Below are positions 4,535 to 38,288 of a stretch of 38,573 nucleotides of DNA, piece after piece. Position 1 is the stretch's first letter. Each line of letters starts with the position of its first letter. The position numbers and the translations under genes were made by a program. Under the pieces are notes generated by a model that had not been told where the DNA came from, made no database searches, and was given only the letters and a program-made list of their open reading frames with translations. This stretch comes from a virus: IMG/VR virus record IMGVR_UViG_3300033153_011288, positions 1 to 38,573 of that record. One strand, given 5' to 3'.

Positions 4535-5081
4535 AAAAATAGCATTAGAAAATTTAAGAGATGCGGTTGAGGTTTTGAATCAATATAAGGCTTATTGGTG
4601 GATTACTGCAGGGACTTGTCTTGGCGCAATTCGTGAAAAAGATTTTATTGATCACGATGATGATATAGATATTGGAATTTTATATAATAGCAAGAAACAG
4701 AGAGATAATATAATTGCAGGAATGATGAAAAAGGGTTTTGAGTTGAAGCATATTTTTGGCAAAAAAAATGCAGGGCTTGAATATTCTTTTATAAAAAAGG
4801 GGGTAAAAATAGATTTTTTCTATTATGATGAATCTGTATGGAAGTGTATAAACGATGGATATTGTATGAGTATATGGCAGTATGGCAAAAGAATAATTTT
4901 AGATTTTCCTGCCTATCTTTTTGAAGAATTAAAAGAAATAGATTTTTTGGGATTAAAAGTGAATGTTCCTAATCCGCCAGAGGACTATCTAAATATTAGA
5001 TACGGAGACTGGAAAAAAGTCGTCAAGGATTGGGATTGGGCTTATGGTGCTCATAATACAAGAGGTAAAAATGGAAAATAA
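4527..5081 (+). CDS. LicD/fukutin-family nucleotidyltransferase-fold transferase
   Basis: A 184-residue protein with the LicD family hallmark: GTCLGAIREKDFIDHDDDID at about residues 29-48, including the DDDID metal site. LicD proteins transfer phosphocholine or related phospho-groups onto cell-surface sugars, and fukutin relatives add ribitol phosphate. The length fits a compact catalytic domain. It is followed by two GT2 glycosyltransferases (5071 and 6262), so the three probably build or modify one surface glycan or virion decoration. The acceptor cannot be told from sequence. Confidence 0.8.
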   Translation: MDKKIALENLRDAVEVLNQYKAYWWITAGTCLGAIREKDFIDHDDDIDIGILYNSKKQRDNIIAGMMKKGFELKHIFGKKNAGLEYSFIKKGVKIDFFYYDESVWKCINDGYCMSIWQYGKRIILDFPAYLFEELKEIDFLGLKVNVPNPPEDYLNIRYGDWKKVVKDWDWAYGAHNTRGKNGK

Positions 5082-5802
5082 AAAAATAACAATTATTGCG
5101 GTTAATTGGTGGGGAAAAGATTTTGCAGAATTACTTGTGAGGAGTATTTTTGAAAAATCAAAATCCAAAGAGCACGATATTATTTTGGTTGATAATAGCG
5201 GGGAATTAAGCATTCAAGATTTTAGCAAATCCTACACAATTATTGAGAGAATTATTAAACCTAATTCAAATTTAGGACACGGCGGAGGATTAGATGTAGC
5301 AATCAAAGAAGTCAAAACTAATTATATAGCTTTGTTTGATATTGATGCTTTCGTATTGGCACAGGATTGGGATGAGAAGATTATTAAGGAATACGAAAAG
5401 AATGATAGAACTAAAATGATTTCAGTTAAGGGAAGTAATTTGAAGCCGGCAAGACCTTTATTTATGTTTTTTGAAAAGAAAACTATTAAAGAAAATGATA
5501 TAAGTTTTAAGGCAAGAGAATTTGAGGGAGTGAAATTTGATGTCGGCATCCACGCTTATTTCAATATATTATCAGTGTATGGAGATGATTCAGTCATTCT
5601 ATTGCCGAGACACAATTCAAAATTTAAGGATGTTCTCGGAGATGAATATTCTTTGAATGGCGAAAGGTTTGTTTATCACAATTGGTATGGCACGCGTTGG
5701 TATGGCGCAAATGGGAAAAGATGTTATGACATAATAGATAATGTTAAGTGGGATCATTTTGAGAAATGTAAAAAGTCGCTTTTTAATCAAGTAGGAAAAT
5801 AA
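5071..5802 (+). CDS. GT2-family glycosyltransferase
   Basis: A 243-residue protein with a GT-A fold. It opens with a Rossmann-like strand (KKITIIAVNWWG), has a DNSG at 41-44, the NLGHGGGLD segment near 67-75 and a DID metal/sugar-nucleotide motif at 90-92 (ALFDIDAF). A typical acceptor-side histidine/tryptophan-rich end follows (VYHNWYGTRWYG). It lacks membrane segments. It overlaps the LicD-like gene by 11 bases, so the two are probably made together. The start at 5071 is preferred over 5044. Confidence 0.75.
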   Translation: MENKKITIIAVNWWGKDFAELLVRSIFEKSKSKEHDIILVDNSGELSIQDFSKSYTIIERIIKPNSNLGHGGGLDVAIKEVKTNYIALFDIDAFVLAQDWDEKIIKEYEKNDRTKMISVKGSNLKPARPLFMFFEKKTIKENDISFKAREFEGVKFDVGIHAYFNILSVYGDDSVILLPRHNSKFKDVLGDEYSLNGERFVYHNWYGTRWYGANGKRCYDIIDNVKWDHFEKCKKSLFNQVGK

Positions 5803-32262: not shown

Positions 32263-32269
32263 GTTTTTG

Positions 32270-32358
32270 GGCTTCATAACGGAGTTTGGTTTCGGATTAA
32301 GTTCTGATTGGCAACCCCATTGCCAAGCCTCACCAGACTCCCTTATGGAGCCTAATCC
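32270..32358 (+). ncRNA. Candidate structured RNA: long stem with possible pseudoknot
   Basis: This gap holds a near-continuous 20-bp stem. 32270-32290 (GGCTTCATAACGGAGTTTGGT) pairs with 32332-32352, with one C-C mismatch and two G-U pairs. The 41-base loop contains a hairpin TTGGCAA/TTGCCAA (32308-32314 with 32320-32326). GGATTA in the loop (32294-32299) can pair with TAATCC (32353-32358) just outside the stem, an H-type pseudoknot. No T-run follows. It starts eight bases after the holin stop. Confidence 0.6.
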
Positions 32359-32411
32359 ACAGCTAACCCACAGGTTATAATTTTGAGATTATATTTGATT
32401 AGCTGTATAAT
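32357..32411 (+). promoter_or_regulatory. Early promoter with two CCACAG (DnaA-box-like) sites
   Basis: -35 TTGAGA (32383-32388), 17 bases, -10 TATAAT (32406-32411). CCACAG occurs at 32357-32362 and 32368-32373, one helical turn apart, and TAATCCACA has one mismatch to the DnaA box. An 8-bp inverted repeat ACAGCTAA/TTAGCTGT (32359-32366 with 32399-32406) spans the promoter and could be an operator. It should drive the initiator gene. Confidence 0.55.
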
Positions 32412-33489: not shown

Positions 33490-33492
33490 AAG

Positions 33493-33537
33493 CTATCCAC
33501 AGGTGGCACTTTACAGAAGATTAAAAATGATTATAAT
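33493..33537 (+). promoter_or_regulatory. Early promoter with DnaA-box element
   Basis: TATCCACAGGTGGC (33494-33507) lies two bases before the -35 TTTACA (33510-33515). A 16-base spacer leads to -10 TATAAT (33532-33537). CTATCCACA has one mismatch to the DnaA box TTATCCACA. The 14-base element and both spacings are identical at 38245-38288. Transcription should start near 33544, at the first base of the attenuator. Confidence 0.7.
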
Positions 33538-33543
33538 TATATT

Positions 33544-33606
33544 GAGGTTAAAAGGGGCAGTCGCTAGACGACAATTCCCATTTCAACCTCTAAAAGAGGT
33601 TTTTTT
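33544..33606 (+). terminator. Terminator with competing antiterminator (attenuator or small RNA)
   Basis: Terminator: AACCTCT (33585-33591) pairs with AGAGGTT (33595-33601), followed by T to 33606. Its 5' arm can instead pair with GAGGTT at 33544-33549, the first bases of the transcript. That pairing encloses GGGG/TCCC (33554-33557 with 33576-33579) and GTCG/CGAC (33560-33563 with 33569-33572). The two folds exclude each other. The product is either a ~63-nt RNA or read-through into the RNA at 33607. Ligand or protein unknown. Confidence 0.7.
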
Positions 33607-33816
33607 AATAACAGGTTCTTGAGGGAGATGATTGGTATTAGCGCCAGCTTCTCGGGTGGGGTTCAATGGTCCTTATATCGCCGTTGAGTTAAGCCCCTCG
33701 ACACGGCTTTCCTCTTAATAAGTCCCGAGGAATAGGAGGACAAGAAAGTGCGACTGTTTGAATGCCGAGACTCATTCAAATGATGATCTGATCATCTTCC
33801 GCACGAGCCTGTTATT
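33607..33816 (+). ncRNA. Large structured RNA of unknown class (~210 nt)
   Basis: P1: AATAACAGGTTC (33607-33618) pairs with GAGCCTGTTATT (33805-33816), 12 bp with one G-U. Inside: P2 CTCGGG/CCCGAG (33651-33656 with 33724-33729), enclosing P3, with 33658-33669 paired to 3381-type partners 33681-33688 and 33694-33697. P5 GTGCG/CGCAC (33748-33752 with 33800-33804) stacks directly on P1. It encloses P6 TTTGAATG/CATTCAAA (33757-33764 with 33773-33780) and P7 GATGA/TCATC (33782-33786 with 33792-33796). No long reading frame is present. It lies in the leader of the early operon. No known class recognised. Confidence 0.7.
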
Positions 33817-33853
33817 AGACCAATAGTCGTGAGGTTAATAATTAAACAAAAAA

Positions 33854-34258
33854 ATGACAGATGATAGAAAAAAAGAATTAAGTGTTTTTGAAAAAGATAA
33901 ATTAATAGAAATAGTAGGAGTATTAGAAGCAAAAATTGAGGATAGTTCTGAAGACTACTATAAAAACGAGGCAAGCGAAAAAAGCGAATTGGTTCAAAAA
34001 ATACTTAACGGAATTTTTGGCGTAGATAGACCAAGAAAAGACAAAGAAGGAAATTATCTTGGCACAGAAAAGTATATTGAATTAGCAATTGCGAATTTCA
34101 ATAATCTTAAGAACAACAAAGATATTGATGATTCAAGAAATTCATTAAATCTTGAAGTGTTAAAAGTAGAAAATAAAAAACTTTGGCATTTGTTAAGGGT
34201 TAATTTTGGGGAAACGCTATCTTATGAAGAAAAGGATATAAAAAATCCATTCAAATAA
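33854..34258 (+). CDS. Hypothetical early protein
   Basis: A 134-residue acidic, helical protein (MTDDRKKELSVFEKDKLIEI start) with a middle segment LVQKILNGIFGVDRPRKD. No family is recognised. It is the first gene after the large leader RNA, so it opens the recombination operon. There is no Shine-Dalgarno at useful distance. Confidence 0.6.
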   Translation: MTDDRKKELSVFEKDKLIEIVGVLEAKIEDSSEDYYKNEASEKSELVQKILNGIFGVDRPRKDKEGNYLGTEKYIELAIANFNNLKNNKDIDDSRNSLNLEVLKVENKKLWHLLRVNFGETLSYEEKDIKNPFK

Positions 34259-34394: not shown

Positions 34395-34406
34395 ATCGTG
34401 CTTATC

Positions 34407-34464
34407 AGTCCCGCTCCTTTCCTTTCATTCGTTGTTCACGATTGGCGAAAGAAAGGACGGGGCT
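34407..34464 (+). other. Long imperfect hairpin between early genes
   Basis: AGTCCCG-C-TCCTTT-C-CTTTC (34407-34426) pairs with GAAAGAAAGGACGGGGCT (34447-34464): 18 bp with two single bulged C and one G-U. The 20-base apex includes TCG/CGA. There is no T-run. It ends 17 bases before the ATG at 34481, so it could control translation or be a processing site. Confidence 0.65.
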
Positions 34465-34480
34465 AATGAGTTAAATTAAA

Positions 34481-35176
34481 ATGGAAAATTTACAAGAAAA
34501 AGACTTGGTGCCTATAAAAACTGAATTGGCAGATGTTCAGTCTGAAGCTTATGATTTAGAAATTAAACAAGTTAAAGATATGGTCATTGCTACAGAGATG
34601 TTATCAAGGATTAAATTAATATCAAAGAATATTAAAGAAACAAAGGAGGGAGCAACAAAGCCAATTAGCGAAGGATTAAAAATGATTAGGGGTTGGTTCG
34701 CACCATTAGAGGATGGTTGGAAAAATGCTGATGGTGTTGTTAGAAAAAAAATGTCATCATTCCAAATGGAAGAGGATAGGAAGGCTCAGATAGAAAGAGA
34801 CAGGATTGCTCGTGAAATGAAAGAAGAGCAAGACAGGATCGCCAATGATAAAAGATTGAAAGATGAGACCAAGGAAGAGAAGGAGGAGGTTGTAGTTGAA
34901 AAGGCAATGGAAAATATTGAGAAAGTTGATGAAGGTCATCAGACTAAATTCAAAGCAGAGTCAGGGTCAGTTCATTTTAGAACTGATAAGGTGGTTGAAA
35001 TAGAACCTTTTAATCACGAATTCTATCAAGTAAAAGATGATTTCAAAGATAATCATAATTTAATACCAGCTGAGTATTTAATGCTTGATGTCAAGAAAAT
35101 TGAGAAAGTGGCAAGGGCAGGAGTAGAAATCCCTGGAGTGTCGGTCCGGGAAGTCAAGACTGTTGTAAATAGATAA
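34481..35176 (+). CDS. Coiled-coil protein of the recombination module
   Basis: A 231-residue protein with a conserved-looking front (EIKQVKDMVIATEMLSRIK, then IRGWFAPLEDGWKNADGVV) and a long charged coiled coil at about 90-150. A folded end follows (FYQVKDDFKDNHNLIPAEYL). I recall similar proteins beside ERF and SSB genes in other phages, where their role is unknown. Position suggests help in strand annealing or replication. Confidence 0.55.
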   Translation: MENLQEKDLVPIKTELADVQSEAYDLEIKQVKDMVIATEMLSRIKLISKNIKETKEGATKPISEGLKMIRGWFAPLEDGWKNADGVVRKKMSSFQMEEDRKAQIERDRIAREMKEEQDRIANDKRLKDETKEEKEEVVVEKAMENIEKVDEGHQTKFKAESGSVHFRTDKVVEIEPFNHEFYQVKDDFKDNHNLIPAEYLMLDVKKIEKVARAGVEIPGVSVREVKTVVNR

Positions 35177-35177
35177 T

Positions 35178-35828
35178 ATGGAAGAGAAAAAAACAACAAA
35201 GAAGACTGATAATTTAGAGACAAAAATCTTGAGAATTCAAACAGAGCTGAAAGCTCCAAAGGGTCAGTTTAATTCTTTCGGGAAATATAAATATCGTAGC
35301 TGTGAAGATATTTTAGAGGCATTGAAGCCATTGTTATTAAAAGAAAAAGTTTTGTTAACAATAAGAGATGAGATTATTTTGGTAGGGAATGGAGTTACTC
35401 CTATAGTGATAGAAAAGACAGCTGTTGGTGGAGATAGGTTTTATATCAAGGCAGATGTCACTGTTCATAATGCCGAGAAGCCTGAGGAATTTTTGGTCAC
35501 ATCGGGGTTTGCTAGAGAGTCGCAGACTAAAAAGGGAATGGATGCTAGCCAAATCACAGGGGCTTCAAGTTCTTATGCTAGGAAGTATGCTCTTAATGGA
35601 ATGTTCTGTATTGATGATAACAAAGATTCTGATAATACTAATAAAAAAGGAACTGGTAGCAAGACAGATTATTATAAAAATGCTTTGACTTCCATTAAAA
35701 GTTTCAAGACAAAAGAAATGCTGAAGGAATTAAAAGTCAAAGTCGAGGCTTCTAAAAATCTAACTAAAGATCAGAAGAATGATCTTGTACTAAAAATAAA
35801 TGCCAAAATCGGAGATAAAACTTCCTAG
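35178..35828 (+). CDS. erf: ERF-family single-strand annealing protein
   Basis: A 216-residue protein with the ERF core: FNSFGKYKYRSCEDILEALK near residue 33, a beta region, and the GASSSYARKYAL motif near 127-138 followed by IDDNKDSD. The C-terminal 60 residues are basic and helical. ERF proteins anneal complementary single strands for recombination and may circularise phage DNA. With SSB and the nuclease it forms a full module. It overlaps the next gene by 29 bases. Confidence 0.85.
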   Translation: MEEKKTTKKTDNLETKILRIQTELKAPKGQFNSFGKYKYRSCEDILEALKPLLLKEKVLLTIRDEIILVGNGVTPIVIEKTAVGGDRFYIKADVTVHNAEKPEEFLVTSGFARESQTKKGMDASQITGASSSYARKYALNGMFCIDDNKDSDNTNKKGTGSKTDYYKNALTSIKSFKTKEMLKELKVKVEASKNLTKDQKNDLVLKINAKIGDKTS

Positions 35829-36423: not shown

Positions 36424-36622
36424 AAAAGAAATAAAAATTGAAGTGGATGAGAATATAATTAGCGATTTAGCTGATATATTATGTTTTTTTTCAGGATATA
36501 AAGAGGCTAAGGGAGATAGTTGGGGTAATGATTGGATAAATGATTCATTCCAAGCATTAAGAAATTTGAGAATTGAGATTGAAGATAAATTGTCGGAAAT
36601 TAAATCTAATAAAAATAATTAA
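36413..36622 (+). CDS. Small acidic hypothetical protein
   Basis: A 69-residue protein (MENKKEIKIEVDENIISDLA start) of helical type with a SWGNDWINDSF turn in the middle. No family is recognised. It is placed between the nuclease and SSB genes and probably translated with them. Confidence 0.55.
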   Translation: MENKKEIKIEVDENIISDLADILCFFSGYKEAKGDSWGNDWINDSFQALRNLRIEIEDKLSEIKSNKNN

Positions 36623-36623
36623 A

Positions 36624-37043
36624 ATGAATTACAATAAAGTATTCGTATTGGGAAATCTTACGAGAGATCCCGAAATCCGCACAACTAACAGCGGATCACA
36701 GGTAGCCAGTTTTGGAGTGGCTACAAATCGTCATTGGAACGATAAGGACGGTCAGAGGCAGAGTGAGGTCGAGTTTCACAATATTACGGCTTGGGGCAGA
36801 TTGGCAGAGATTGCCGGTCAATATCTTAAGAAGGGTCAGATTGTCTTTGTTGAGGGTCGATTAAAGACTCAGACTTGGGAAGACAAGGAAGGAAACAAAA
36901 AGAGCAAGGTTGACATCATCGCTGAGGGCTTTCAAATGGGTCCTGGGGGCGATAGGTCAAATCAGAGTAATGAGCCTACTGAGGAGCCACCAGTGGTAGA
37001 TGAGCCAAAGGATATAAAGTCTCCTGATGATGTTGATATATAG
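36624..37043 (+). CDS. ssb: Single-stranded DNA-binding protein
   Basis: A 139-residue OB-fold SSB with the expected start (VFVLGNLTRDPEIR) and core (EVEFHNITAWGRLAEIAGQY, KGQIVFVEGRLKTQTWED). The tail is acidic and ends DDVDI, close to the bacterial DDxPF-type tip used to recruit partners. It coats single strands in replication and recombination beside ERF and the nuclease. Start 36624 is chosen at the conserved N-terminus. Confidence 0.92.
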   Translation: MNYNKVFVLGNLTRDPEIRTTNSGSQVASFGVATNRHWNDKDGQRQSEVEFHNITAWGRLAEIAGQYLKKGQIVFVEGRLKTQTWEDKEGNKKSKVDIIAEGFQMGPGGDRSNQSNEPTEEPPVVDEPKDIKSPDDVDI

Positions 37044-37046
37044 AAT

Positions 37047-38243
37047 ATGAATAAAATTACTTTGAGGGGCTATCAAAAAAAAGCTATAGAGAAAATATTT
37101 TGGGCTAGAGAAAATAATTTTGAAGGCAATGATTTGATAGTCCTTCCTACAGGGTCAGGAAAAAGTTTAGTGATATCAAATCTAATAAAATCTTCTGAGG
37201 AGCATGTTTTAATAATTCAACCGACAAAAGAAATCTTGGAGCAAAATGTTGAAAAATTATTGAATTATATTGATCGTTCAGATATAGGAATATATTCTGA
37301 GTCAATGAAAGAAAAGACTATCAGAAAATTTACATTCGCAACGATTCAAAGCATCTATAAAAAAGCGGAAGAATTTGAGCATTTTAATTTCGTGATAATA
37401 GATGAGGCACATCTTGTTAATCCAAATAAGAAGTCGAGTATGTTTAATAAATTCTTGGCAGGAATAAAAAATCCGAAAGTGATAGGTTTTACTGCTACAC
37501 CATATAGGTTGGAGCAACAATTCAGAAGAAGGAGAGGTGGATTTATAGATGTAAAAACTTTCATTCAGATTATAAGTAGAATGACTGGATTCTTTTGGCA
37601 CAGAATATTATATAAAGTTGACCTTCAGGAATTGATAGAAAAAAAATATCTTTGTCCTATTAATTATATAGACAAATCTTTGATAGAAATTGACGAGGCA
37701 AAATCAGAAGCGGAGTTAGTAAAGAAATGCGAGAAAGTTATAAGTTCTAAAATTAAGGAAGTATTAGGGATCATTGAATATGCCAAAGGAATATCAAAAA
37801 GCATTGCGGTTTTCTGTTCGTCTATAAAACAGGCAGAAGAATTATCAGAATTGGTTCAGGACTCAGCGGTTGTGTCATCCTATACTAAGAAAATTGAAAG
37901 AGAGACGATATTGAATGGATTTAAGAGCGGAAAAATAAAAGTGATATTTAATGTTGGAGTATTGTCTATCGGTTTTGATTTTCCTGCCCTTGATTGTATC
38001 GTTCTATTAAGGCCTACAAAATCAATCGCACTTTATTATCAAATGATTGGCAGGGGTGTTAGGACTTCAGTTGGTAAAAAACAATGTAATGTAATTGATA
38101 TGACTTCAACGATTAAAACACTCGGCAAAGTTGAAAGTATAAAATTGGAAAAGATAGAGGGTAAGTGGGAACTATTAACTGATACTGGATCGTGGCATAA
38201 CAGACAATTATATCAGAACATATTTAGATTAAAAGGCAAATAG
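37047..38243 (+). CDS. SF2 DEAH-box helicase
   Basis: A 398-residue helicase with the full motif set: Q-type RGYQKKAIEKI near 7-17, motif I LPTGSGKS at 33-40, II DEAH at 119-122, III FTATPYR at 148-154, and VI YQMIGRGVR near 330-338. An insert rich in basic residues (QFRRRRGGF) follows motif III. It is of the compact RAD25/UvsW-like form found in phages and likely unwinds forks or recombination intermediates. It ends the replication operon. The DnaA-box promoter follows its stop by one base. Confidence 0.87.
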   Translation: MNKITLRGYQKKAIEKIFWARENNFEGNDLIVLPTGSGKSLVISNLIKSSEEHVLIIQPTKEILEQNVEKLLNYIDRSDIGIYSESMKEKTIRKFTFATIQSIYKKAEEFEHFNFVIIDEAHLVNPNKKSSMFNKFLAGIKNPKVIGFTATPYRLEQQFRRRRGGFIDVKTFIQIISRMTGFFWHRILYKVDLQELIEKKYLCPINYIDKSLIEIDEAKSEAELVKKCEKVISSKIKEVLGIIEYAKGISKSIAVFCSSIKQAEELSELVQDSAVVSSYTKKIERETILNGFKSGKIKVIFNVGVLSIGFDFPALDCIVLLRPTKSIALYYQMIGRGVRTSVGKKQCNVIDMTSTIKTLGKVESIKLEKIEGKWELLTDTGSWHNRQLYQNIFRLKGK

Positions 38244-38288
38244 TTATCCACAGGTGGCGTTTGACAATGATTATCAATCTGTTAATAT
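38244..38288 (+). promoter_or_regulatory. Early promoter with consensus DnaA box
   Basis: TTATCCACA (38244-38252) is a perfect DnaA box within TATCCACAGGTGGC (38245-38258). Two bases later comes -35 TTGACA (38261-38266), a 16-base spacer and -10 TAATAT (38283-38288). The element and spacings repeat those at 33494-33537. It should drive the accessory operon across the circle joint. Confidence 0.7.

Follow-up and report, generated by a model that had tools for sequence, protein, structure and literature searches.

The DNA analysed here, referred to as the window, is the whole of a 38,573-base virus record from IMG/VR and belongs to a phage known from environmental DNA. Between an ORF of 269 aa and one of 134 aa, neither of known family, lies the intergenic region 33490-33853, which carries on its + strand a promoter, two overlapping hairpins and a 212-nt element (33606-33817) with paired ends. 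Four of the features described below come directly from computation: the inverted repeat, the fold specific to the + strand, the match to a promoter consensus and the leader hairpins that compete with each other. The features around the element are as follows.

33494-33507, + strand: upstream promoter element TATCCACAGGTGGC, DnaA-box-like; an identical 14-mer precedes the promoter at 38245, with a shorter match at 32367
33510-33537, + strand: sigma-70-type promoter TTTACA-16-TATAAT, 11/12 consensus matches
33544-33590, + strand: 5′ hairpin GAGGUU...AACCUC, antiterminator-like, at the inferred transcription start (z -4.3, 0/300 shuffles as good)
33585-33608, + strand: intrinsic-terminator-like hairpin AACCUCUAAAAGAGGUU (33585-33601) with T run; it and the 5′ hairpin cannot form together
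33854-34258, + strand: first downstream ORF, 134 aa, no family match
34481-35176, + strand: exonuclease-like gene
35178-35828, + strand: ERF annealing protein gene
36618-37043, + strand: SSB gene
37047-38243, + strand: helicase gene

When the 121-nt stretch was shuffled 1000 times, no shuffle reached the promoter match, and only two sites with 11 of 12 matches occur window-wide. The upstream sequence CCACAGGT is common to three early promoters of the window (32367, 33494-33507 and 38245-38258), two of which have it in the form TATCCACAGGTGGC. In the related phage records L149, L252, L255, L261 and L285, the DnaA-box sequence TTATCCACA precedes TATAAT at five sites. The near-consensus promoter together with its upstream element indicates that 33606-33817 belongs to a leader starting near 33544. 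Within this leader, the 3′ arm of the 5′ hairpin doubles as the 5′ arm of the terminator-like hairpin, and the element comes directly after. TGAGGTTAA, present at the inferred leader start (33543), recurs at 33830-33838 just ahead of the ORF, so that AACCTC, the arm of the terminator, could pair with any of three partners. From 33817 to the ORF at 33854 there is no terminator-like site, and the element would thus be co-transcribed with this ORF as one RNA.

Two further structures were observed near this region. The stretch 32265-32357, which separates the late genes from the early promoter at 32383, is strongly structured (z -7.0, against -3.4 on the reverse strand), with a 13-bp and a 10-bp stem around two hairpins. 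In the gap ahead of the gene at 34481, a long hairpin AGUCCCGCUCCUUUCCUUUC/GAAAGAAAGGACGGGGCU occupies 34400-34470 (z -4.6) and has no T run.

In the 212-nt element on the + strand, two 30-nt arms (33606-33635 with 33788-33817) form a closing stem, about 28 pairs long, with a small internal loop. Its two halves, P1 and P2, have pairing probabilities of 0.97-0.98 in the best fold, and the internal loop between them holds two extra pairs (13 + 2 + 13). A preliminary description of this DNA had noted a closing stem of 12 bp; the stem is indeed present, and it exceeds that length. The parts of the element are as follows.

33606-33618, + strand: P1, closing-stem 5′ strand, 13 bp with 33805-33817
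33623-33635, + strand: P2 (inner half of the closing stem), 5′ strand, 13 bp with 33788-33800
33636-33787, + strand: inner domain, G+C-rich, as a whole folding no better than shuffled sequence
33650-33655, + strand: UCUCGG, a possible partner of the loop CCGAGA at 33765-33770 (candidate pseudoknot)
33658-33697, + strand: P3 hairpin
33698-33753, + strand: P4 arm
33755-33782, + strand: hairpin UGUUUGAAUG/CAUUCAAAUG with loop CCGAGACU
33788-33800, + strand: P2, 3′ strand, 13 bp with 33623-33635
33805-33817, + strand: P1, closing-stem 3′ strand, 13 bp with 33606-33618

With only Watson-Crick pairs counted, the repeat formed by the arms scored 39; when the intergenic region was dinucleotide-shuffled 400 times, the best shuffle scored 28. 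The repeat is the top widely spaced one of the entire window, where the runner-up of similar spacing scores 29. Folding energies gave the same picture: the + strand reaches -79.1 kcal/mol (z -4.4, with none of 200 shuffles as good), a repeat run gave z -5.5 (0/400), and the z value is the lowest among 732 windows with both strands counted. The reverse strand reaches only z -1.3, compared with -4.4 to -5.5 on the + strand. The element thus folds lower than its shuffled controls, as the earlier claim of a structured RNA demanded, and 33606-33817 is a genuine long-stem element with strong statistical support, and very probably an RNA. Among the 30 arm positions, 24 are Watson-Crick pairs, 4 are G.U on the + strand, none is A.C and 2 are other mismatches. 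Since a DNA palindrome is expected to accumulate both kinds of wobble, G.U without A.C leans toward selection on RNA, although the numbers are small (about 1 in 16 by chance) and the evidence is accordingly weak.

The inner domain behaved differently from the stem. Folded alone, its 152 nt gave z -1.1, with 41 of 300 shuffles equally good, and when the arms were kept and only the interior was shuffled, the value was z -0.75 (64/300). Because the interior does no better than shuffles, it is the closing stem that produces the folding signal, and not layered inner pairing, which the preliminary description had regarded as unlikely by chance. Local values were z -3.0 for P3, z -1.75 for P4 and z -2.5 for the P5 domain (10 of 500 shuffles as good), all for boundaries picked post hoc and with modest stability. 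The same description had placed a P5 domain with two hairpins directly on the closing stem. This arrangement is disfavoured: forcing P5 raises the energy from the -80.4 kcal/mol of the best fold to -72.0 kcal/mol, a penalty of about 8 kcal/mol, and the 3′ strand of the P5 domain is taken up by P2 in the best fold, the same bases being contested. A pseudoknot between 33650-33655 and 33765-33770 could form, a suggestion of the folding model that stands without comparative support; the pairing has a probability of 0.25 and the P5 hairpin one of 0.64, and the two exclude each other in nested models only. The inner domain is energetically ordinary and so may lack a defined tertiary fold. A ribozyme-like role, raised earlier, found no support. 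Our search for a leader peptide gave two ORFs, 19 and 27 codons long, that begin within the element, no higher a count than expected by chance.

We then compared the element with known RNA classes and with available sequences. A scan of the window with the Rfam 15 covariance models returned no match at the gathering score; up to E 10, only CRISPR-DR5 and snoZ119 appeared, each far under its gathering score, and no riboswitch. No tRNA or tmRNA was detected in the element either, and the view that it falls into no recognised class was therefore upheld. BLASTN searches of phages and plasmids with the element gave chance matches or none, and three DNA patterns searched in IMG/VR retrieved seven stretches, apparently by chance and all without the fold. 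A covariance model built from the single sequence found no relative in 80 ERF-neighbour loci (IMG/VR), 49 terminase-related records and further loci, which is weak negative evidence because a one-sequence model detects only fairly similar sequences. The record itself holds no second copy. For the proteins of both flanking ORFs, our search of IMG/VR gave no relative, and their structure models (pLDDT 43-44) were unusable. The terminase does belong to a genuine family, but its relatives, at 51-57% identity, are distant, and a terminase-profile search of the genome collection produced only seven hits, all distant as well. The element is thus an orphan and not yet a new RNA class.

Long stems were nevertheless seen in related phage records. 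A few inverted repeats with arms about as long stand out between genes, at 4935-5040 and 5043-5177 of L278, at 8814-8974 of L269 and at 3212-3369 of L150. All four begin with TAG, end with TTA and have a G.U at pair 3, and the window element begins with TAA and ends with TTA; the shared TAG/TTA ends may be due to chance because the boundaries were set by eye. The two L278 repeats (4935-5177) are long-stem elements arranged in tandem, and both lie upstream of the terminase genes. Within the first 13 pairs of these tandem stems, two pairs differ on both sides with pairing kept (compensatory), and the G.U pairs 3 and 8 are retained. An intron within the terminase gene of L278 or L269 was considered and rejected, the elements lying upstream of the small-subunit match. 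L150 also contains a tRNA gene (2341-2436). Across eight strong repeats, a neutral count gave 11 G.U versus 5 A.C, a weak lean toward RNA.

In the distant relative L252, the same promoter box lies before a leader that is closed by a 12-bp stem and has a second long stem crossing it, ahead of a probable replication gene. The crossing stems of L252 (7963-8124, minus strand) consist of 12-bp and 10-bp stems versus 24-nt arms and look switch-like. This record argues for reading the window element as part of a leader, whereas the other lineage phages whose promoters share the box have short, unstructured leaders, which argues against it.

Taken together, the promoter, the attenuator, the strand-specific folding, the G.U-only wobble and the position agree with the original proposal of a structured RNA following an attenuator in the leader of the recombination operon, and the element is probably a structured RNA leader of the replication/recombination operon. 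As to what it does, the explanation that we prefer, tentatively and at somewhat less than even confidence, is a cis-acting 5′-leader domain of this early operon closed by a long RNase III-type stem. Transcription would begin near 33544 at the near-consensus promoter, and the polymerase would traverse the small antiterminator/terminator switch and then the 212-nt domain with its paired ends. The stem would next be cut, or would join the leader ends, setting the attenuator apart from the downstream mRNA. Such processing or insulation may determine how stable, or how well translated, the mRNA of the 33854 gene and of later genes is, and the effect would accordingly be expected on the downstream genes. 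Long stems of this type are typical RNase III substrates, which makes processing and insulation the most likely role; leader stems of the RNase III kind have at least 20 pairs with small internal loops, and the closing stem has 13 + 2 + 13. Judged solely from the length of the stem, RNase III would act on it.

Other readings were ranked in the order of a released trans-acting RNA, a two-state switch and a mobile insert. According to the first, which we regard as unlikely, the stem is processed and the inner domain of about 150 nt is freed as a stable RNA acting on host or phage targets. The G+C-rich island in an AT-rich genome, the promoter of its own, the discrete domain framed by a long stem and the possible pseudoknot would all suit such an RNA; its 3′ end, however, has no terminator of its own, the inner domain is no more stable than shuffled sequence, and relatives elsewhere were not found. 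Less probable than a released RNA is a cis-acting switch, riboswitch-like or a processive antiterminator, that alternates between P2 and the P5/two-hairpin fold. These folds are mutually exclusive (-80.4 versus -72.0 kcal/mol), the P5 domain locally beats most shuffles, an attenuator precedes the element and the L252 leader likewise has two crossing long stems, but the difference of 8 kcal/mol strongly favours one state, no expression platform, either a terminator or a sequestered ribosome site, turned up downstream of the element, and a riboswitch match is absent from Rfam even at E 10.

Lower again, and rather improbable, is an explanation at the DNA level, in which a small mobile element, non-autonomous and bounded by imperfect inverted repeats that end in TA, was inserted after the terminator. 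The 27-nt terminal repeats (85% identity, TA at either end), the compact size of 212 bp and the foreign-looking G+C content are consistent with this origin, yet the sequence is single-copy in the record and did not turn up in our searches of phages, plasmids and IMG/VR, and the folding asymmetry between strands and the G.U-only wobble point to RNA. We give still less weight to the idea that the window element and the four long stems of the related records represent an undescribed kind of RNA in this uncultured-phage terminase lineage, 100-210 nt in length, with long imperfect stems, 5′-TAR...TTA-3′ ends and unrelated interiors, and released by processing. The least probable reading is a chance or decaying palindrome within the leader with no function of its own, which would fit the missing homologue and the undetectable inner constraint but not a 27-nt imperfect palindrome of a strength reached in 0/400 shuffles and unmatched in 38.5 kb.

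If real as RNA, the element is an orphan structured leader from a phage lineage without a near cultured member, and its placement at the switch ahead of the replication/recombination genes would offer an entry to early gene control. While it stands alone, with no relatives, it cannot yet be called a class, but the element merits follow-up if closer phages appear.

Several known systems resemble the element in part. Retron msr-msd RNAs have an end-paired long stem enclosing a branched domain, and the window element resembles them in both respects, with AGC after the 5′ arm; a retron ncRNA was rejected, as the 10 neighbouring ORFs scanned included no reverse transcriptase. The put RNAs of HK022 suppress downstream termination without a protein factor. 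They are structured, act in cis in an early phage leader transcript, as proposed here, and are about 70 nt long with two stem-loops (PMC9378689). Membership was rejected, the element having 212 nt and one long closing stem. ROOL and GOLLD are likewise structured phage RNAs whose function is not known, and they far exceed the element in size, often lie close to tRNA islands and were defined through covariation (PMC12286853); the Rfam models give no match to the element, and these classes were rejected as well. The closest parallel to the cis-acting leader domain that we favour is provided by phage early leaders. Stems processed by RNase III are known from the lambda N leader and the T7 early mRNA. 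The stem described here differs from them in holding a 152-nt domain and not a short loop, has no sequence relation to them, and its cleavage is predicted. What it has in common with both is a long imperfect stem, with an early promoter upstream and the first genes downstream.
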